Source: an uncultured Spartobacteria bacterium
GTDB taxonomy: Bacteria > Verrucomicrobiota > Verrucomicrobiia > Chthoniobacterales > Chthoniobacteraceae
Direction: 5' to 3'
Length of the DNA: 45,976 nt
NCBI GenBank assembly: GCA_903929475.1
Contig: CAIYUV010000203.1
Coordinates: 1-45,976 of the forward strand
A model generated the notes under the pieces. That model ran no database searches, was not told the origin of the DNA, and saw nothing but the letters and a program-made list of their open reading frames with translations. The translations under genes and the position numbers were made by a program. This document shows positions 3,422 through 44,821 of the stretch, piece by piece; the first letter of the stretch is position 1; each line of letters begins with the position of its first letter.

Positions 3422-3805
3422 TCACTCTTCAAGACCGTTCACCACACGCTTGATGCCATTTTTGAGGAGCACTTCGCCGAAATTGATGAGCAACCCGAGT
3501 CGGCAATCTTTCAAGCGAAGATAAGTCAGCAATTGCTTGCCAGCGACCGCAGGCAGAACCTCGACCGACTTCAATTCCACGATGAACTTCCCCTCGATGA
3601 TGAGGTCCGCGCGAAAGCCCTCATCGAACGTGATGTCATCATACTGAATCGGCACGGGAACCTGTCTCTCTACCTGCAAGCCGCGCTTCCGCAATTCATG
3701 GGCAAGCGCGACTTCATAGACGGTTTCGAGAAGCCCCGGCCCTGTCTTGGTGTGAACGCGGAGGGCAGCATCAACGACGGTAGTAGCGATTTCATTTTCA
3801 GTCAT
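3422..3805 (-). CDS. GxxExxY protein (PD-(D/E)XK-like, PDDEXK_3 family), inserted in nrt operon
   Basis: A 127-aa protein of the GxxExxY family. The family name motif is seen as GPGLLETVY at about residues 22-30, and the nuclease-like core as FRADLIIEGKFIVELKSVE (about 63-81), where D65, E78 and K80 fit a PD-(D/E)XK-type active site. No function is established for the family. It lies on the opposite strand between nrtB and nrtC, which in all other nrt operons known to me are adjacent, and is bracketed by 30-bp perfect direct repeats, with a third inverted copy to the left. This arrangement suggests a one-gene cassette that was inserted as a unit. There is no transposase. Confidence 0.85.
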   Translation of the reverse strand: MTENEIATTVVDAALRVHTKTGPGLLETVYEVALAHELRKRGLQVERQVPVPIQYDDITFDEGFRADLIIEGKFIVELKSVEVLPAVAGKQLLTYLRLKDCRLGLLINFGEVLLKNGIKRVVNGLEE

Positions 3806-5855: not shown

Positions 5856-7301
5856 ATGAAACCAAACCTGACACCACACATCACCTCACTGTTTGCCGCC
5901 GCCCTCTTCGCCGGCAACGCTATCGCAGGAACTGCAACAGCTCCTGCTCCACAAAAATCTGATCCACTGCCGCTGCTCTCGTTTTGCGACGGCAAGATTG
6001 TCTTCGACGTGCAGGAACGCCTGCGCTGGGAAATCCGCGAAAATAACTTCGACTTCAATGACGGCGCTCGCGCCCTCACCGATGACAATTGGTTTGAGCA
6101 GCGCTTCCGCATCGGCATCACACTCAAGCCGACGGACTGGCTGAAAATCTACGCGCAGGCGCAGGACAGCCGTGAATGGCTCAGCGACCGCGCCGACATC
6201 CCCGGATTGATCGGTGCCGAGGGTGACGATACTTTCGACCTGCGTCAGGCCTACATCGAAATCGGCAATACGAAGGAAATTCCGTGGGGCATAAAAATCG
6301 GCAGGCAGGTGCTCTCGTTTGGCGATGAGCGGCTCGTCGGTGCTTCCGAGTGGAACAACATCGCGCGCACTTTCGACGCAGTGAAGCTCAGTTACAAAGC
6401 CGCAGACTGGAGCATTGATGCCTTCGGTTCCAGCGTGGTTGTGCCAGAGAACGGCAGCTACAACCAAAGCGATCTTTTTAATGGCAACGAAACCAAGCGC
6501 GAACAGGTCTTCAGCGGCCTGTATTTTTCCACCACGGCCATCCCGGTGCAGACCACGGACCTATACGCATTCCATCTGCATGAGAATTTCCCGACCACGA
6601 CCACGAACTTCCTCACCCTCGGCGTGCGCGTGAAATCCAAGCCCGGCGTATTTGCATCTGCGCAGGCCAGTGGACTCAGCAAGGACGGCAAGGCCACGGT
6701 TGCACCAGTAGCTACGAAGCCGGTGGGCTTTGATTACGATGCCGAGTTCGCATTCCAGACCGGCGAGGTAAAAGACAAGGATCTTACCGCATTCGCAGTT
6801 CATGCGGGTGTCGGCTACACGTTCGACACGGCGTTGATGCCGCGCCTCGGCATCGAATATAATTACGGATCCGGTGATAAGGATCCGACTGACAGTGACA
6901 CCGAGACATTCCAAAATCTCTTTCCGACGAACCACAAATTCTACGGCCAGATGGATGTTTTTTCGTGGCAGAACATGCACGACCTCGGTGTGAACTTCAA
7001 ATGTGAGCCGACTAAAAAGCTGGGCCTGAAAGCCGAGTATCACGCCTTCTGGCTCGCGAGCACAGACGACTCATGGTATCGGGCAAACGGAGTCGCCACC
7101 GTCCGACCGCTCACGCCTGCCGCCCGTGCAGCAAGCAACTATGCGGGTTCCGAGGTGGACGTTACCGCCACCTACGCAGCGACGAAATGGCTGACCTTTG
7201 AAGCTGGCTACAGCCACTTCTGGGCTGGCGATTATCTCGCCGACACAGGCCCGAGCGACGACGCGGACTTCGGCTACTTGCAAGCCACGATCACGTTCTA
7301 A
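5856..7301 (+). CDS. Outer-membrane porin of the alginate-export (AlgE-like) family
   Basis: A 481-aa predicted outer-membrane beta barrel. The ATG at 5856 gives a signal peptide (hydrophobic 9-20, cut after GNAIA near residue 24). The mature protein shows the alginate-export domain pattern: repeated amphipathic strands such as FDVQERLRWEIRENN, the stretch IKIGRQVLSFGDERLVG (near 147-163), and a C-terminal strand ending in Phe (LQATITF), the usual insertion signal. Its position inside the nitrate operon suggests a channel for nitrate or nitrite across the outer membrane rather than alginate export. That role is inferred from context only. A hairpin with a short T-run follows at 7371. Confidence 0.8.
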   Translation: MKPNLTPHITSLFAAALFAGNAIAGTATAPAPQKSDPLPLLSFCDGKIVFDVQERLRWEIRENNFDFNDGARALTDDNWFEQRFRIGITLKPTDWLKIYAQAQDSREWLSDRADIPGLIGAEGDDTFDLRQAYIEIGNTKEIPWGIKIGRQVLSFGDERLVGASEWNNIARTFDAVKLSYKAADWSIDAFGSSVVVPENGSYNQSDLFNGNETKREQVFSGLYFSTTAIPVQTTDLYAFHLHENFPTTTTNFLTLGVRVKSKPGVFASAQASGLSKDGKATVAPVATKPVGFDYDAEFAFQTGEVKDKDLTAFAVHAGVGYTFDTALMPRLGIEYNYGSGDKDPTDSDTETFQNLFPTNHKFYGQMDVFSWQNMHDLGVNFKCEPTKKLGLKAEYHAFWLASTDDSWYRANGVATVRPLTPAARAASNYAGSEVDVTATYAATKWLTFEAGYSHFWAGDYLADTGPSDDADFGYLQATITF

Positions 7302-15352: not shown

Positions 15353-15784
15353 ATGCGACTCTGGACAATTCACCCGCAGCATCTCGACGCGAAGGGGCTC
15401 GTGGCGCTCTGGCGCGAGGCGCTGCTCGCGCAGGCTGTCGTGCTCGGACGCACACGCGGCTACCGGCATCACCCGCAGCTCGCGCGCTTCCTCGCGACGC
15501 CGGAACCGGCGGCGGCACTCGCGAGCTATCTCGCGGAAGTGCATCGCGAGGCGGAGCAGCGCGGGTATTCTTTCAATGCGTCGAAGATCGGCGAGGCGCG
15601 CTTCGAGGGGGAAATCGCGGAGACGAAAGGGCAGTTGCTCTACGAGTGGGAACATCTCCGGCGAAAGCTGAAGGTTCGCGATCCGGATCGGCTGAAAAGC
15701 TTCCGCAGCATCGAAATTCCGCTGCATCATCCGCTCTTCCGCCTCGTCGCTGGAGAGGTGCGCGAGTGGGAAAAGAGGGAGTGA
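15353..15784 (+). CDS. Pyrimidine-dimer DNA glycosylase / endonuclease V family protein
   Basis: A 143-aa protein of the Pyr_excise family, which excises UV-induced pyrimidine dimers or related lesions. The family opening, [20 protein letters not shown], and [11 protein letters not shown] are intact, so the N-terminus at ATG 15353 is convincing. It starts 6 bp after the cytochrome gene and ends 49 bp before nitrate reductase, on the same strand, so it is most likely co-transcribed. A DNA repair enzyme has no obvious task in nitrate assimilation. A Shine-Dalgarno-like AAGGAG at 15329 is better spaced for an out-of-frame ATG at 15343, a point I regard as chance. Confidence 0.85.
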
Positions 15785-15833
15785 AACTTTCCGCGGCGAT
15801 GGCCTGCGGCTCACACGACAGGATTTAATTCCA

Positions 15834-38834: not shown

Positions 38835-38948
38835 AGTCTCCGCGAGTCCTCCGGGAAACAAAAGAACTGCTCTATTTTTCATCTGCTTGTGAAACAAATC
38901 ACAATCGGCTTGCGCTGACTCGAAGTGGCTCGCATCGTGACGGCCTGT

Positions 38949-40196
38949 ATGGCTGCCAGCACTGTCGAGTTTGAAATGCCCGATGCTCTCACCAAGACCC
39001 AGCAAGGTCTGGAGGGCACAGGGGACGCACTTGGGGAAAAGCTCATCATCAACATGGGCCCTTCGCATCCCGCGACACACGGGGTGCTCCGTCTCGTGCT
39101 CGAGATGGACGGCGAAGTCATCACCAAGGCCACGCCCGACGTCGGCTACCTCCATCGCGGCGATGAAAAAATCGCGGAGAACATGACCTACAACCAGTTC
39201 GTGCCCTACACGGATCGGCTCGATTATCTGGCCCCCGTCGCCAACAACGTCGCCTACGCGATGGCAGTGGAAAAACTCCTCGGCTGGGAACTCCCGCCAC
39301 GCGGTCAGGCCATGCGCGTGCTCGGTTGCGAACTCGCACGCGTCTCCGCGCACCTGCTCGGCATCGGTTGCTTCGCGATGGATACCGGCGCGATGACCGT
39401 TTTCCTCTACACGTTCCAGCAGCGCGAAATCATCTACAACTTGATGGAGCAAATGACCGGCGCGCGCTTCACCACGAGCTGGACGCGCATCGGCGGAATG
39501 GTGCGCGATTTACCCGACGGCTTCCTCGCTGCCGTGCGTAAATTTTGTGACGAATGTCTCCCCGTCGTGGACGAAACCGACAAGCTCCTCACGCGAAACC
39601 GCATCTTCGTGGATCGCACGAAAGACATCGGCACCATCTCGAAAGAAGACGCCATCGCCTACGGACTCAGCGGCCCGAATCTCCGTGGCAGCGGAGTGGA
39701 TCACGACATCCGTAAAAAGCAGCCCTACCTCGGCTACGAGCAGTATGACTTCGACGTGCCGCTCGGCAGCGTCGGCGACAGCTATGACCGCTACCTCGTC
39801 CGCATGGAGGAGATCAAACAAAGCATCCGCATCATCCGCCAGGTCTGCGACACTCTCCCTAGCGGCCCGTGGTTTGTGGACGATCCGAAAAACTACCCGC
39901 CGCCAAAAACCACGGTGCTCACGAAAATGGAGGAACTCATCCACCATTTCATCCTTCACACCGAAGGCGTGAAAGCCCCCGCAGGCGAAGTCTATTTCGG
40001 CGCGGAAAATCCAAAGGGCGAACTCGGCTTCTACATTTACAGCAAAGGCGGCGGCACACCCTACCGTCTGAAAATCCGCAGCCCCTCGTTCATCAATCTC
40101 AGCATCTTGCCAAAAATCCTGCCCGGTCACATGATGAGCGACGTAGTCAGCATCCTAGGCTCCCTCGATTTCGTGATGGGTGAGTGTGATCGGTAG
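38949..40196 (+). CDS. nuoD: NADH-quinone oxidoreductase subunit D, with exchanged 3' end
   Basis: The 49-kDa quinone-site subunit of complex I, about 415 aa. INMGPSHPATHGVLR (near 34-48), VGYLHRGDEK, YTDRLDY and PGHMMSDVV are family hallmarks; it ends GECDR as expected. The start is uncertain: ATG 38949 is taken, ATG 38976 is equally possible. No other nuo gene is in the window. The last 50 bp (40147-40196) recur at 43224-43273 with six changes, all third-position and synonymous, so the tail now used appears to have been supplied by an inserted segment. Its codons (CTA, GGT, TGT) are less GC-rich than those of the displaced copy. Confidence 0.93.
   Translation: MAASTVEFEMPDALTKTQQGLEGTGDALGEKLIINMGPSHPATHGVLRLVLEMDGEVITKATPDVGYLHRGDEKIAENMTYNQFVPYTDRLDYLAPVANNVAYAMAVEKLLGWELPPRGQAMRVLGCELARVSAHLLGIGCFAMDTGAMTVFLYTFQQREIIYNLMEQMTGARFTTSWTRIGGMVRDLPDGFLAAVRKFCDECLPVVDETDKLLTRNRIFVDRTKDIGTISKEDAIAYGLSGPNLRGSGVDHDIRKKQPYLGYEQYDFDVPLGSVGDSYDRYLVRMEEIKQSIRIIRQVCDTLPSGPWFVDDPKNYPPPKTTVLTKMEELIHHFILHTEGVKAPAGEVYFGAENPKGELGFYIYSKGGGTPYRLKIRSPSFINLSILPKILPGHMMSDVVSILGSLDFVMGECDR
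40147..40196 (+). repeat. nuoD 3'-end repeat, proximal copy (attL-like)
   Basis: Codes SILGSLDFVMGECDR and the TAG stop. It matches 43224-43273 at 44 of 50 bases; the differing bases are all third codon positions. The longest identical run is 11 bp (GGCTCCCTCGA). Confidence 0.9.
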
Positions 40197-40305
40197 GTTT
40201 CGAGGTAGTTCTAGAGAAAATTCTAAAGTCTGAATTTGCGGTTAGCAGCCTTGGAACTCTACGTTTCTCCTTGCTCGTCCATAGTTGCACGGACACTCAT
40301 GCGCC

Positions 40306-43200
40306 ATGACGAGCAGGCATCGTTTGAATTCGATTTTCGGATTGCTCATCTATATCACGATGTGTTGCAGCCCAACCTTCGCGAAGGAGAAAAAGGAGGA
40401 TGAGAAACTCTTGGAAAAATTCTTTGAATTGGGACTGCCCGATGTAAAGGGCGCGAAGTGGGTGAAGGTTTTTGTTTCCGGGAGTCAGGATTACGACGCG
40501 ATCACGAATAGTTTCAAATTTCAGCTTTCGGGTAACGCATGGTTGCTTTCTGAACGGAACGGCGTGGTGGAATTGCTGGCAGGCAGCGGGAGACTCATTC
40601 GAGGCAGAAAGTGGAGGGAAGGAATGACCGAGCCTTACGATGAAAGAGCAATGCTCAGTGTTTCTGTCAGCCCGGCGAATCTTAAGGAGGATATCAAACT
40701 TTTGCCCGCAGCCGTGAAGGACTTGGATGAAGCCGACACTACACCGGAATCAAGGGTGAATAGCGCAGGTGTTTTGCTTCTCTTTCTCGCGGAACTCCAG
40801 CGGCATGGACACGCGGAAATTGTAAAAGAGATTCTGCCCCAAGCGCTCGCGCTGGCACCATCAAAAGAGACGGCTTTGGATGCTGCTGTATCGCTCGTTG
40901 CAGATGGTCAACTTGCAGCCATTGTCCGTGATTGGATTCAAAACGGGGACGTTGCCGCCACTACGAAAGCTCTGGATGCTCTCGTGGCGAGATTTCACCA
41001 TGGCTGGCAAAATCAAGCAGCTGCGCGTTTGTTTACTACTCGGATGCGGAAACAAGAGGCGGCAACCCGTGCAGGTGAGCGTGACGCAAAAGAAGCAGCG
41101 AAATTTTTGATGAACATCAACATGAAGCAGTTTGAGAGGCTGCCTTTTAACAGCAATTGGCTGATTACTGACGTAAAACAGCACGAACACTATGAAAGGG
41201 GGCGCGGAGCGTTTTGCGGATCCCCTGCTTTTGTAAGGGTGGGAGGAAAGGCGGTTTTTGACGATCCGACCACTGCCTTCCTTGCAAAAAAGCGTGAACT
41301 GGTTTCCGCCTTGGAAAAACTGATTGATGATCGGCGATTCCTGCGAGTTGAAAGTTGGAGGGATGACCACTGGGGATCAGGTCGCTTTTCCCACAATGAA
41401 TCGGAACGGGGAGTGGGCTACGATGGTCTCCAGCGACCTTGGGAGTTGGGTGAACTCGCATGGCGCATGATCAGGCCAATTTTAACTGATAACGTTGAGT
41501 CGGAAATTGAGGGCAATCCGCAGGAACGCATGAAGCTGGTGTCTGCTTTCCTGAAAACCATTTTAGCGAAGAACGACGAAGAACTCGCTTGGTTTTACCT
41601 CCACGCAGCTGCCGACGCTGGGAATCTGTCTTATCAAAGCCTCGATTATCTCATCAATAAGGGCAGTCAGGAGACACTTTCAAAACTGAGGGAGTTGTTT
41701 CTCGATTCCAAAGTCTGGAGTGAGTATAATTCTTTCGATGAGATGCTGGTGAGGGTTGAGGAATATTTGAAACGTGCTCCGCAAGACGCTGCTTTCGCGA
41801 AAAACTTGCGTGCTGCGGTGAAAGCCGGGACCGACGCATATCGCGAAAGATATCAGGATGCTACCAAACCGGAGACAGAAGATGATAAGCGACAACAAGC
41901 GCACACGCGTGCGGCTCAAATGAAGTTGATAGACCTTGCAATCAACCACCCCGGAGATCTGCCGAGGAAATTCACTGAGATTGCAGCGATGAACGAAGAC
42001 GAGGAATCAACTGCACTGTTTGCCATAGTTACAGGACTTGGAAGATGGTCATCGGTGGAAGTGGAGGCTGCGATTCTCAAGACTGTTGCCACAATGGGAA
42101 CACCTACCTGCAAACAGTGCATGATGCAGTTCATGCGCAACGTTTATGAGCCGCAGACCGATGGCATGTTTAACTTTGACAGCGCGCTCCCTATTCCAAG
42201 CGATGCGGCGACACGTGCAGCGATACTCACATTGTTACAAGACGAAACACCCATTCTAGACACATGGGCAGGCAATCGGAAAACCACGATTGGCGATTTT
42301 ACCGCTGAGGTTTTATTTTCCATTTCCATTGGAGGAAAGAAGCGAACGACCTGGGGAATGCGCAGTCATACTGTGAGCTATCTCAACAAAAAATGGCTGC
42401 GCGCAAATGCGATGGCAATCGCAAGTGGAAAACCTTCGATTCCACTGCCCTACACGGAGAAATTTTCCTCGCGTCAAACGACCATGCTCATTCGTGGACT
42501 CTCTGCACTTGCAGCAATACAAGTTCCAGCTGCGCTTGCGGAGAAATCACCGGACGAACAAACCGCAATCATCACGCGCCTTGATGCAGTTAAAACATGG
42601 CCTGTGTCGCTTTCGACGGCGCATTTTACCATTGGAAAAGTATCCGGAGACGGGGCTGCCGATCTTGACGCTGAAAATTGGAAAGGCCGGCGACTTGATG
42701 AAAAACTCATCAACGAAATCATAGCAGCGATTCAAAAAGCAGCCGTTGCTGGAAAGTATTTAACCGTTACCGCGTCAATCGCGGGGGCACTCGCCGGCTG
42801 CGAAATCGTAGTAGTGAAAACGCCAAAAATGATGACACAGCAACAACTCGTAGAAACGAAACTTCCCGGCCTCGTGGGCAAAGCCTCGCCTCTTGCGGTG
42901 TGTTCGATTTGCGTTGGAACCGGTATGTTTTCAGATGACGTAGATTTTTCGGCTAGATTCGGTTTTCCAATTTGGAAGGACGACACGCAGACACTGGCCT
43001 GGCAAAACGAACACGGCCAACCACGCCCAGAACCAGAGGATCCAGAACGATTCACGGAACCATGGCGTAAGAAAGTTTCTGCAAACCCGCTCCCATTCCA
43101 GACGAAGCTGAAGGAATACTTTTCGATGAAATCTGGGTATGAGCAACGGGGTGCGTTCAAACTTACGATATGCTCTACAGCAGTCCGTCTTGATAAGTAG
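40306..43200 (+). CDS. Large secreted orphan protein inside the nuoD-targeted insertion
   Basis: A 964-aa protein with no family I recognise. ATG 40306 gives a signal peptide (about 8-26, cut after SPTFA). The body is largely helical with several repeat-like helical pairs (for example 100-245 and 420-560) that could be HEAT/TPR-like; the last 250 residues are richer in beta strands, with a cysteine pair CSICVG near 866. There are no membrane spans after the signal. The base composition is visibly less GC-rich than nuoD and the nitrate genes (many AAA, GAA, ATT, CAA codons), fitting foreign origin. It is the only gene between the two nuoD tail copies. Confidence 0.75.
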   Translation: MTSRHRLNSIFGLLIYITMCCSPTFAKEKKEDEKLLEKFFELGLPDVKGAKWVKVFVSGSQDYDAITNSFKFQLSGNAWLLSERNGVVELLAGSGRLIRGRKWREGMTEPYDERAMLSVSVSPANLKEDIKLLPAAVKDLDEADTTPESRVNSAGVLLLFLAELQRHGHAEIVKEILPQALALAPSKETALDAAVSLVADGQLAAIVRDWIQNGDVAATTKALDALVARFHHGWQNQAAARLFTTRMRKQEAATRAGERDAKEAAKFLMNINMKQFERLPFNSNWLITDVKQHEHYERGRGAFCGSPAFVRVGGKAVFDDPTTAFLAKKRELVSALEKLIDDRRFLRVESWRDDHWGSGRFSHNESERGVGYDGLQRPWELGELAWRMIRPILTDNVESEIEGNPQERMKLVSAFLKTILAKNDEELAWFYLHAAADAGNLSYQSLDYLINKGSQETLSKLRELFLDSKVWSEYNSFDEMLVRVEEYLKRAPQDAAFAKNLRAAVKAGTDAYRERYQDATKPETEDDKRQQAHTRAAQMKLIDLAINHPGDLPRKFTEIAAMNEDEESTALFAIVTGLGRWSSVEVEAAILKTVATMGTPTCKQCMMQFMRNVYEPQTDGMFNFDSALPIPSDAATRAAILTLLQDETPILDTWAGNRKTTIGDFTAEVLFSISIGGKKRTTWGMRSHTVSYLNKKWLRANAMAIASGKPSIPLPYTEKFSSRQTTMLIRGLSALAAIQVPAALAEKSPDEQTAIITRLDAVKTWPVSLSTAHFTIGKVSGDGAADLDAENWKGRRLDEKLINEIIAAIQKAAVAGKYLTVTASIAGALAGCEIVVVKTPKMMTQQQLVETKLPGLVGKASPLAVCSICVGTGMFSDDVDFSARFGFPIWKDDTQTLAWQNEHGQPRPEPEDPERFTEPWRKKVSANPLPFQTKLKEYFSMKSGYEQRGAFKLTICSTAVRLDK

Positions 43201-43223
43201 TTACCGTGTATTTGAGGAATGTT

Positions 43224-43273
43224 TCAGCATCCTCGGCTCCCTCGACTTCGTCATGGGCGAGTGCGATCGATAG
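43224..43273 (+). pseudogene. Displaced 3' end of nuoD (attR-like)
   Basis: Fifty bases coding the same last 15 residues and stop as nuoD, but with no gene body in front: the bases just upstream do not match nuoD. Its codons (CTC, GAC, GTC, GGC, TGC) follow the GC-rich host style. I read it as the original nuoD end, pushed 3077 bp downstream. Confidence 0.85.
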
Positions 43274-43336
43274 GCGGCTCCAACGTGGACAGATTTTAGA
43301 TTGGTCTCCACGTTGTGCGTGCGTAGGCTCGCGCTC

Positions 43337-43879
43337 ATGAAAGCCCTGCTCACTTGTCTCGCCCTTTTCGTTTCTTCTTTTACCCTCGGTGCTGCCCCTG
43401 CGCCACTGGCCTATAACATCAGCCAGTTCAAGCTCGGTGCCTACATCACCGGGCCGCAGCTCACGCTGGATAATGCGAAGGGCAAGGCGGTGCTCATTGA
43501 TGTTTGGGGTGTTCACTGCGGGCCGTGTTTGCGTAGCCTGCCGGAGATAGAAAACATCTCAAAGCGTCTCAAAGACAAGATGGTGGTTTTCGGCGCACAC
43601 GCGCAGGGCGGGCCGGTGGAGGCAGTGAAAGCGGTGGTTGCGCAAAACAAACTCACCTACACGGTCGTGGATAACCTTCAGAGCCCGATTCCGTCGAACA
43701 CCATTCCGCACGTTTACGTGTTCGATGCGGCGGGCGGATTGATTTTTTCAGGCAACCCGTTTGATCCGAATTTCGGTCGCGCATTGCAGGCTGCCACGAA
43801 GGGCGTGGCCAAGGCTCCTGCTCAGAGGGAGAGCGCGCTCGATGCTTTCAAGAAGGCAAACAGTGCGAAGGTTCAATAG
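43337..43879 (+). CDS. TlpA/ResA-like thioredoxin-fold protein
   Basis: A 180-aa exported thiol-disulfide protein. ATG 43337 gives a signal peptide (MKALLTCLALFVSSFTLGAA). The thioredoxin active site is CGPC in VWGVHCGPCLRSLPEIE (near 56-60) and the cis-Pro loop is SNTIPHVYVFD. Typical for periplasmic thioredoxins used in cytochrome c maturation or repair of secreted proteins. It lies just after the displaced nuoD end, so before the insertion it was probably close behind nuoD. It converges with trpA. Confidence 0.85.
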   Translation: MKALLTCLALFVSSFTLGAAPAPLAYNISQFKLGAYITGPQLTLDNAKGKAVLIDVWGVHCGPCLRSLPEIENISKRLKDKMVVFGAHAQGGPVEAVKAVVAQNKLTYTVVDNLQSPIPSNTIPHVYVFDAAGGLIFSGNPFDPNFGRALQAATKGVAKAPAQRESALDAFKKANSAKVQ

Positions 43880-43915: not shown

Positions 43916-44722
43916 TTATGATTCCCGCAGCGCGGCGGTGAGCGGGGCGACGAAGGCGGTGACTTTTTCCACGAGCTTCGGGTCGCTGCCGTATTCGGCG
44001 ATGCGTTTGACGATGGCGGAGCCGACGACCACAGCATCGGCGCATTTCGCGATGGTGCGGACTTGCTCGGGCGTGCCGACTCCGAAACCGACGGCGACGG
44101 GGAGCGACGTGTATTTTTTGATCACGGCGACTTGCGCGGCCATGTCGCTCGCGACGTCGCTGCGCTCGCCGGTGACGCCCGTGCGGCTGACGTAGTAGAT
44201 GAAACCTCCGGCGTCGCGCGTGAGCAGGGCGATGCGCGGCTCGGGTGTGGTTGGCGCGATGAGGCGGATGCGTTTCAGACCGCCGTGCATTTGGAGTTCG
44301 GGGTTCGCGGAATCTTCATCCGGCGGGAGGTCGAGAAAAAGCACGCCGTCCGCACCCGCTGCCTCGGCATCGGCGAGGAACGTATCGAAGCCGTAGCGAT
44401 AGACGGGGTTCATGTAGGTGTAGAGCACGATGGGGATTTGCGTGCGCGTGCGAATTTCGCGGATGCACTGGAGGACGCCGCGCAAGCAGGCTCCGGCGGC
44501 GAGTGCGCGCGTGCTGGCCATTTGATTCACCACGCCATCGGCGAGCGGATCGGAAAACGGAACGCCGATTTCCACGAGGTCCACGCCCGCATTGGCGAAG
44601 GAGCAGACGAGTTCGCGCGTGGCGTCGAGCGAAGGATCGCCGCCGCAGATGTAAGCGATGAAGCCGGCGCGCTTCTCGGCGCGGAGGCGTGCGAATGTTT
44701 GGTCAATGCGGTTGCTGGACAT
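43916..44722 (-). CDS. trpA: Tryptophan synthase alpha chain
   Basis: A 268-aa enzyme that splits indole-3-glycerol phosphate into indole and glyceraldehyde 3-phosphate. The catalytic Glu and Asp are in VEIGVPFSDPLADG (near 49-62), with GGDPS near 29, YYVSRTGVTGER near 173 and VGFGVGTPEQV near 210 (phosphate site). Start: ATG 44722 matches the family; a longer frame to 44794 adds an unlikely 24 residues. trpB is not in the window. The gene is divergent from the QueD-like gene with a 99-bp gap. Confidence 0.95.
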   Translation of the reverse strand: MSSNRIDQTFARLRAEKRAGFIAYICGGDPSLDATRELVCSFANAGVDLVEIGVPFSDPLADGVVNQMASTRALAAGACLRGVLQCIREIRTRTQIPIVLYTYMNPVYRYGFDTFLADAEAAGADGVLFLDLPPDEDSANPELQMHGGLKRIRLIAPTTPEPRIALLTRDAGGFIYYVSRTGVTGERSDVASDMAAQVAVIKKYTSLPVAVGFGVGTPEQVRTIAKCADAVVVGSAIVKRIAEYGSDPKLVEKVTAFVAPLTAALRES

Positions 44723-44821
44723 GGCGCAGAGCAAAAACGGAAATGCGGGTTTTGGAAAAGGTTTTCGACAGATTTGGATTTTCTCCGTGCCCAACGGCCC
44801 GTCCGTCGCTCAAATGCGCGG

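Follow-up and report, generated by a model that had tools for sequence, protein, structure and literature searches.

Gene content of the nuoD locus

The window, a stretch of 45,976 nucleotides, corresponds to a single 46-kb contig; the genome to which it belongs, G000, amounts to 4.5 Mb in 295 contigs. An intact nuoD gene is followed on the same strand by a gene encoding an orphan protein, by a second copy of the nuoD tail, and by a TlpA/redoxin-like gene; the resident trpA gene lies in the opposite orientation (Table 1). The list of open reading frames places the start of nuoD at a GTG codon at position 38925, and most relatives begin to align at the ATG codon retained in Table 1. The named relatives of nuoD, among the matches listed, belong to the Chthoniobacteraceae or Spartobacteria of the phylum Verrucomicrobiota. 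A search of Rfam returned no match.

Table 1. Annotated features of the window and repeated gene ends accepted in the genus.
Feature	Position in window	Strand	Repeat length	Evidence, cargo or remarks
nuoD, NADH-quinone oxidoreductase 49-kDa subunit, intact	38949..40196	+		Pfam Complex1_49kDa 1.1e-117; 85-95% identical to seven genus orthologues
nuoD tail, proximal copy, in use	40147..40197	+		45/51 identical to 43224-43274
Inserted segment, 3,026 bp	40198..43223	.		G+C 0.499 versus 0.596 in flanks; protein not found in nine other genus genomes
Orphan gene, 964 aa from first ATG (971 aa from TTG 40285)	40306..43200	+		Signal-peptide-like start by eye
nuoD tail, distal displaced copy	43224..43274	+		Repeat match to proximal copy; synonymous codon differences
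TlpA/redoxin-like gene	43337..43879	+		First ATG 43337, ORF list TTG 43301; Redoxin 5.2e-07
trpA, tryptophan synthase alpha chain, resident flank	43916..44794	-		Trp_syntA 2e-80
AXE1 esterase tail			45 bp	Cargo: double thioredoxin-like gene, now ending in the displaced tail
RidA tail			124 bp	Cargo: small ORF and PIN-domain gene on the opposite strand
560-aa ORF tail, G007, no Pfam match			45 bp	Cargo: gene with GspD-N0-like domain, also ending in the displaced tail
HAD-type phosphatase 5' end, G000 (genome of the window)			55 bp	Leader and first three codons; 9/55 bases coding
Lipoprotein-like gene (by eye), 5' part, G008			59 bp	Cargo: DUF433 and DUF5615
Type ISP restriction gene head, G003			264 bp, 90.9%	5' end

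The stretch comprising the TlpA-like gene and trpA is common to G007 (89% over 2.5 kb), the closest relative as judged from the TlpA-like gene, which lies there at a contig end. In that genome (locus L088, G007:C59, region 15670-15812), the TlpA-like gene is devoid of its first ~37 codons, and the contig stops 142 bp upstream from the gene, in unrelated and possibly insertion-sequence DNA. No match to nuoD was obtained anywhere in the G007 assembly. An empty site, in which nuoD would be directly joined to the TlpA-like gene, was not observed, and a donor harboring nuoD followed by the orphan gene was not found among the relatives and the class samples.

A diverged copy of the nuoD end bounds an orphan gene

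The last 51 bases at the end of nuoD recur at a spacing of 3,077 bp, and the repeats read as coding gene ends. The preliminary description of this locus had reported 44 matches over 50 of these bases, all coding differences being synonymous, and both counts were reproduced. Among the 16 codons compared between the two tails, six have changed, all six synonymously, a result with a probability of 1.2e-4 under neutrality. Both tails encode the same peptide, SILGSLDFVMGECDR, and the stop codon is also identical. After 300 rounds of dinucleotide shuffling of the downstream 5,780 bases, the best ungapped 50-mer matched at 28 positions, indicating that the observed value of 44 is far above chance. 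The longest exact run common to the two tails is 11 bases. As described previously, the distal copy has no gene in front of it, its frame being open for 47 codons only.

The element had also been assigned a size of 3,077 bp. This value is correct for the spacing of the repeats, but the bases strictly between the two copies number 3,026. This segment contains a single gene encoding the orphan protein (up to 971 residues), for which one paralogue (34%) was detected in the same genome (C176:50880-53639). The orphan protein had no match in Pfam, PADLOC, PHROGs, or PDB and a single NCBIfam match far below cut-off. The claim that the insert encodes no integrase or transposase domain was therefore borne out in Pfam, PADLOC, and PHROGs, with only this sub-cut-off NCBIfam match, and no homing-type or other nuclease domain was detected in it. 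The protein was unmatched in all nine other genomes of the genus, one of which is only 76% complete. Two of the 56 other genomes in the relatives sample encode a weak relative, as do 10 of the 383 other genomes in the class sample, one genome being common to both. The low G+C content and the lack of a match in the nine genus genomes agree with the earlier proposal of an insertion beside nuoD, the inserted DNA being foreign-looking.

Duplicated nuoD ends in other genomes

The preliminary description had called for a search for duplicated nuoD ends elsewhere, and this search revealed a second case, with a different insert, in a second species of the genus, represented by the genome designated G003. 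Of 40 family genomes, 34 contained a match to a pattern derived from the conserved C-terminus of NuoD, and two copies were present in G000 and G003 only, i.e. in two of the eight pattern-matching genomes of the genus. In the phylum sample, which does not include G003, the pattern was found in 102 of 387 genomes and only G000 contained two copies. A second tail was detected in 2 of the 39 nuoD ends examined together with their downstream DNA (only ~100 bases for some of them), corresponding to the window and G003. In a named collection, the best 80 of 580 nuoD loci included 71 with at least 1 kb of downstream DNA, and the one second tail among them was on the G003 contig.

In G003, the nuoD repeat spans 119 bp (114 identical) and surrounds 744 bp in which a small ORF is accompanied by an HNH-nuclease gene (Pfam 6e-11). 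The length of the repeat at nuoD differs between the only two cases (51 bp in G000 versus 119 bp in G003), and inspection by eye revealed no sequence common to the two junctions. According to ORF lists and Pfam matches, rather than pairwise alignments, the first gene after nuoD appears to be different among the eight genus members in which nuoD was found.

The HNH gene behind nuoD in G003 forms part of a cassette that several genomes of the group contain. Examination of 12 further HNH loci identified a long flanking gene-end repeat at locus L162 only; at L167 and L168, the HNH gene is within ~500 bp of the end of the stretch examined. A partner ORF of 74-85 codons precedes the HNH gene at some loci (L161, L167, and L169 among L160-L169); one genome of the genus contains the cassette in several copies, and seven HNH matches were obtained in G006. 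The cassette may possibly have a role in defence or act as a toxin-antitoxin-like system, its best PADLOC matches being PtuB models.

The same footprint at other gene ends

A repeat scan was performed for low-copy direct repeats of 38-300 bp, 78-99.5% identical and 400-6,000 bp apart. The genus set comprised 104 loci (1.80 Mb) and was not random since it included loci chosen for nuoD, HNH, and TlpA. Of the 33 pairs detected, 15 were dropped by a paralogue filter and 8 of the 18 remaining pairs were accepted by eye. The ten others were located at L264 (two pairs, leader or signal-peptide-like), L277, L322, L346, L278 (two pairs, repeats), L292 and L296 (repeats within one protein), and L301 (similar small genes). 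At L264 (1075-1158, 2314-2397, and 7261-7301), the leader and signal-peptide-like DNA of neighboring genes is alike and the proteins differ.

The control set consisted of 90 loci (about 1.25 Mb) from other Verrucomicrobiota, following removal of 18 of 108 loci as redundant. The scan detected 12 pairs, of which 5 were dropped by the filter. Among the seven pairs left, three were at L162, which was set apart, and the pairs at L205, L210 (two), and L231 were intergenic or simple repeats not involving gene ends.

Scanning for duplicated C-termini gave 8 hits in 64 loci of the genus. Three were kept (both nuoD loci and the esterase), L287 was retained at a later stage, as a 5' end located on the opposite strand, and L265, L277, L278, and L284 were not kept. 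In other loci, none of 7 hits in 109 loci was kept, L162 being set apart as an array. Further C-terminal scans yielded 4 hits, including RidA, which was kept and which spans two stretches analysed joined, and 12 hits, including the G007 ORF, which was also kept.

Together, eight gene ends were accepted in the genus, comprising five 3' tails as well as three 5' ends, with repeats of 45-264 bp; six of the eight lie beyond nuoD (Table 1). In these cases, the insert is bounded by an intact gene and a truncated homologous end, the host gene preceding the cargo for tails and following it for 5' ends. The host gene was seen whole in seven of the eight cases, on the side predicted by a crossover with a truncated end; the lipoprotein-like gene of G008 exceeds the stretch that was fetched. 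The composition of the inserts varies, four of the eight being as G+C-rich as their flanks or richer. Scanning of the other cargos detected PIN and DUF5615 domains and no homing-type nuclease domain; the PIN and DUF433/DUF5615 pairs are presumably toxin-antitoxin-like.

Comparison of the six events not involving nuoD in the 1.80 Mb of the genus with none in about 1.24 Mb of the control gave p = 0.09. The values were p = 0.02 for eight events versus none and p = 0.25 for six versus one, if L162 was counted in the control. As this difference is weak, the sample biased, and acceptance made by eye, we refrain from considering this genus exceptional.

Two other loci displayed partial or repeated gene ends. 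In G014, a member of a sister genus (L162, C74:12000-21000), an HNH module and a PIN-domain pair are interspersed with three ~130-bp copies of an ECF-sigma-like head (at 3588, 4591, and 5505; 92-96% alike), as if the cargos formed an array. The array is followed by a complete ECF sigma gene (6090-6644, Pfam 1.4e-53), which is a different copy (67% similar). In G004 (L363, G004:C10, 17522-17593), a solitary 72-bp RidA tail, which has lost its stop codon, is located behind an M28 peptidase gene, on a contig other than that of the closest RidA-like gene of G004, an assembly of 750 contigs with 7% contamination.

Origin of the two copies

Seven coding pairs were scored, the phosphatase being excluded; synonymous changes account for 26 of their 34 changed codons, or for 22 of 26 if the restriction gene is omitted. 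The excess of synonymous changes in the seven pairs is highly significant in comparison to neutral evolution (p = 2.7e-9). It remains detectable against a model combining one constrained and one free copy, for which we estimated a synonymous share of 0.6 (p = 0.03, or 0.007 without the restriction gene). The divergence of the window tails (44/50 identical) is inside the range of 40-49/50 observed in comparisons between nuoD tails from eight members of the genus. Mostly synonymous changes combined with species-like divergence suggest that the two copies evolved as working ends in two genomes. The tail copies are thus most likely, as judged from their sequences, orthologous ends of two genomes that were later brought together.

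Duplication within a single lineage, by slippage or by tandem duplication then deletion, would require neither transfer nor a foreign donor, and the two G003 repeats are 95-96% alike. We nevertheless consider this origin unlikely in view of the excess of synonymous changes over the constrained-plus-free model, of the species-level difference between the window tails, and of the foreign composition of the orphan gene.

The third-position G+C content of the window tails (0.71 and 0.88) falls within the range observed along nuoD (0.59-0.94). Two bases of the proximal copy in the window and one base of the distal copy are absent from the tails of the other seven genus members. At some sites, the distal copy of G003 departs from the two nearest species, G002 and G004, and at others it matches one of the two or both. 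Since the diagnostic bases point both ways, base patterns name neither copy as foreign and do not bear out the earlier proposal that the proximal tail arrived together with the insert. Mosaic tails are the outcome expected of a crossover within the tail, to which these patterns are suggestive pointers, and an exchange of tails is plausible.

Alternative explanations: site-specific elements, homing, and assembly

The preliminary description had proposed that nuoD is a coding-sequence attachment site of the type known for icd. The 3' end of nuoD would then be attB-like, and a reduced or trans-mobilised element, akin to a CIME, would lie between attL and attR and supply the tail in use. The direct-repeat architecture, the restoration of the gene, and the second, unrelated insert at nuoD in G003 (two of eight genus loci being hit) are in keeping with this proposal. 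However, the same footprint is found at six further gene ends, of which three are 5' ends, and the breakpoint is not fixed, as indicated by the two repeat lengths at nuoD. Phage_integrase (PF00589) had 11 matches in G000, none of them on the contig of the window; in each of the eight genomes of the genus for which a nuoD contig was available, that contig had no match, three of these contigs being only 4-7 kb long. The nuoD tail was not detected in viral contigs, phages, or plasmids, among which such elements may be unsampled. The icd-like model was therefore not upheld, and site-specific integration is doubtful as an explanation of these loci. A dedicated nuoD site was rejected as the sole explanation, given the occurrence of the footprint at other genes and at 5' ends. 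In the open-licence literature (titles and beginnings of abstracts, among the matches listed), we found no description of nuoD as an insertion site and none of gene-end duplications around cargo in Verrucomicrobiota.

In a homing-type element, a nuclease would cut near the gene end and the element would bring a replacement end, as proposed for mobile ORFs of fungal mitochondria, which share this anatomy (PMC3630166). The HNH nuclease behind nuoD in G003 would fit such a mechanism. It is, however, improbable for the loci analysed here because neither the window insert, which has no nuclease domain, nor the other cargos scanned, which have no homing-type one, would provide the required enzyme, and a long gene-end repeat accompanied the 12 further HNH genes at L162 only.

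An assembly artefact is very improbable: the genome is probably metagenome-assembled, as are most named relatives among the matches listed, it is split into many contigs, and some contig ends share 137-145 identical bases, but the longest exact run between the window tails is short for a k-mer misassembly, the repeat is inside a 46-kb contig, and like footprints occur in other genomes, G003 and G008 originating from different projects. The stretches of 137-145 bases common to different contigs (98.6-100%), mostly at their ends (L262/L264/L279, L271/L280/L316, L288/L291/L292, and L351/L088), probably correspond to assembler overlap or to repeats at contig breaks.

Proposed mechanism

We favor, with moderate confidence, the addition of foreign fragments, each consisting of a homologous gene end and a neighbor gene, by recombination anchored in that end, independently from any special mobile element. 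A DNA fragment from a related species would carry the last tens of bases of its nuoD gene and the adjoining orphan gene. The likeliest route would be joining of this fragment into a circle followed by one RecA-mediated crossover inside the nuoD tail. The product would consist of an intact, possibly hybrid, nuoD gene followed by the cargo and by a truncated nuoD tail. In a close variant, homology-facilitated illegitimate recombination, the fragment would be homologous at one end and end-joined at the other. Neither route would need a dedicated recombinase. A single crossover or illegitimate recombination would account for the variable length of the repeats, the involvement of both tails and heads, the short cargos, and the absence of a recombinase. 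The architecture, the orthologue-type differences, and the recurrence of the footprint at further genes, in their 5' and 3' ends alike, are observations, from which we infer the circle, the crossover, the participation of RecA, and the donor.

Several observations count against this recombination reading. Repeats of 45-60 bp at ~88% identity are a poor substrate for RecA, and neither an empty site nor a donor was found. The Ku end-joining protein had no match in nine of the ten genus genomes, including G000, G003, G007, and G008, implying that formation of a circle or end-joining would need another ligase. Ku was found in one genome of the genus (G002:C177:1649-2191). Finally, nuoD was hit in two of eight genus members, which is above our expectation from the overall rate and would fit a preferred site.

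In E. coli experiments (PMC3240628), partly degraded linear DNA was re-ligated into a circle and integrated by a single crossover. The products were duplications of the lacZ end of 109-950 bp in 14 sequenced clones, and such events were ~10 times more common than homology-facilitated illegitimate recombination (PMC3240628).

The recombination reading can be extended, very tentatively, to a gene-cassette economy of the Chthoniobacteraceae operating without an integrase of its own, in which cargo circles harboring pieces of host-gene ends would enter relatives that have the corresponding gene. At the same low level of confidence, the cargos of this economy would be toxin-antitoxin-like pairs, HNH modules, and secreted proteins, and the gene ends would act as interchangeable sites, giving rise to arrays such as that of the ECF-sigma heads of G014.

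A truncated gene end, differing mostly by synonymous changes and located beside the intact gene, would provide a readable footprint of additive transfer between wild species in the absence of mobile-element genes. Should its true frequency be near that of our biased sample, in which 1.8 Mb of the genus contained 6 to 8 events, the spread of single genes and of toxin-antitoxin-like pairs could be followed into genomes that may look empty to island finders. The contribution of single-crossover relative to end-joined integration in nature could then also be tested.

Comparison with known systems

Phage 21 and e14, which encode an integrase and rely on a single fixed site, duplicate the coding 3' end of icd with synonymous changes. 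The duplicated coding 3' end and its synonymous changes are common to the loci described here, in which, in contrast, no integrase was found and the breakpoint varies.

The closest likeness is to the single crossover of a re-circularised fragment and to homology-facilitated illegitimate recombination, as presented in the E. coli report (PMC3240628). The single-crossover product is a partial duplication of a gene end around a foreign segment, and no dedicated recombinase is involved. The present cases differ in that they concern wild genomes, apparently diverged species, and repeats of 45-264 bp; the illegitimate product usually shows a deletion.

Sequential displacement of type VI secretion effector-immunity modules and Rhs tips (PMC5361080) also relies on a one-sided homology anchor, displaces the old end downstream, and can generate arrays. 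The authors of that study suggest that something similar to homology-facilitated illegitimate recombination is at work (PMC5361080). The gene itself diversifies in that system, whereas here the host protein is unchanged and the gene is a mere anchor.

The mobile ORFs of fungal mitochondria display a complete gene with its tail, an ORF, and a second, diverged tail, and transfer was proposed as their origin (PMC3630166); the atp6 tails share 63.5% identity at the DNA level and 91% at the protein level. These mobile ORFs encode a homing-type nuclease, unlike the insert of the window, and 5' ends are also hit in the present case.

Finally, the small variable segments described in bacteria are small insertions devoid of mobile-element genes that were ascribed to illegitimate recombination (PMC2884548). 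Most of their flanking repeats are shorter than 30 bp, whereas those reported here are diverged and extend over 45-264 bp.
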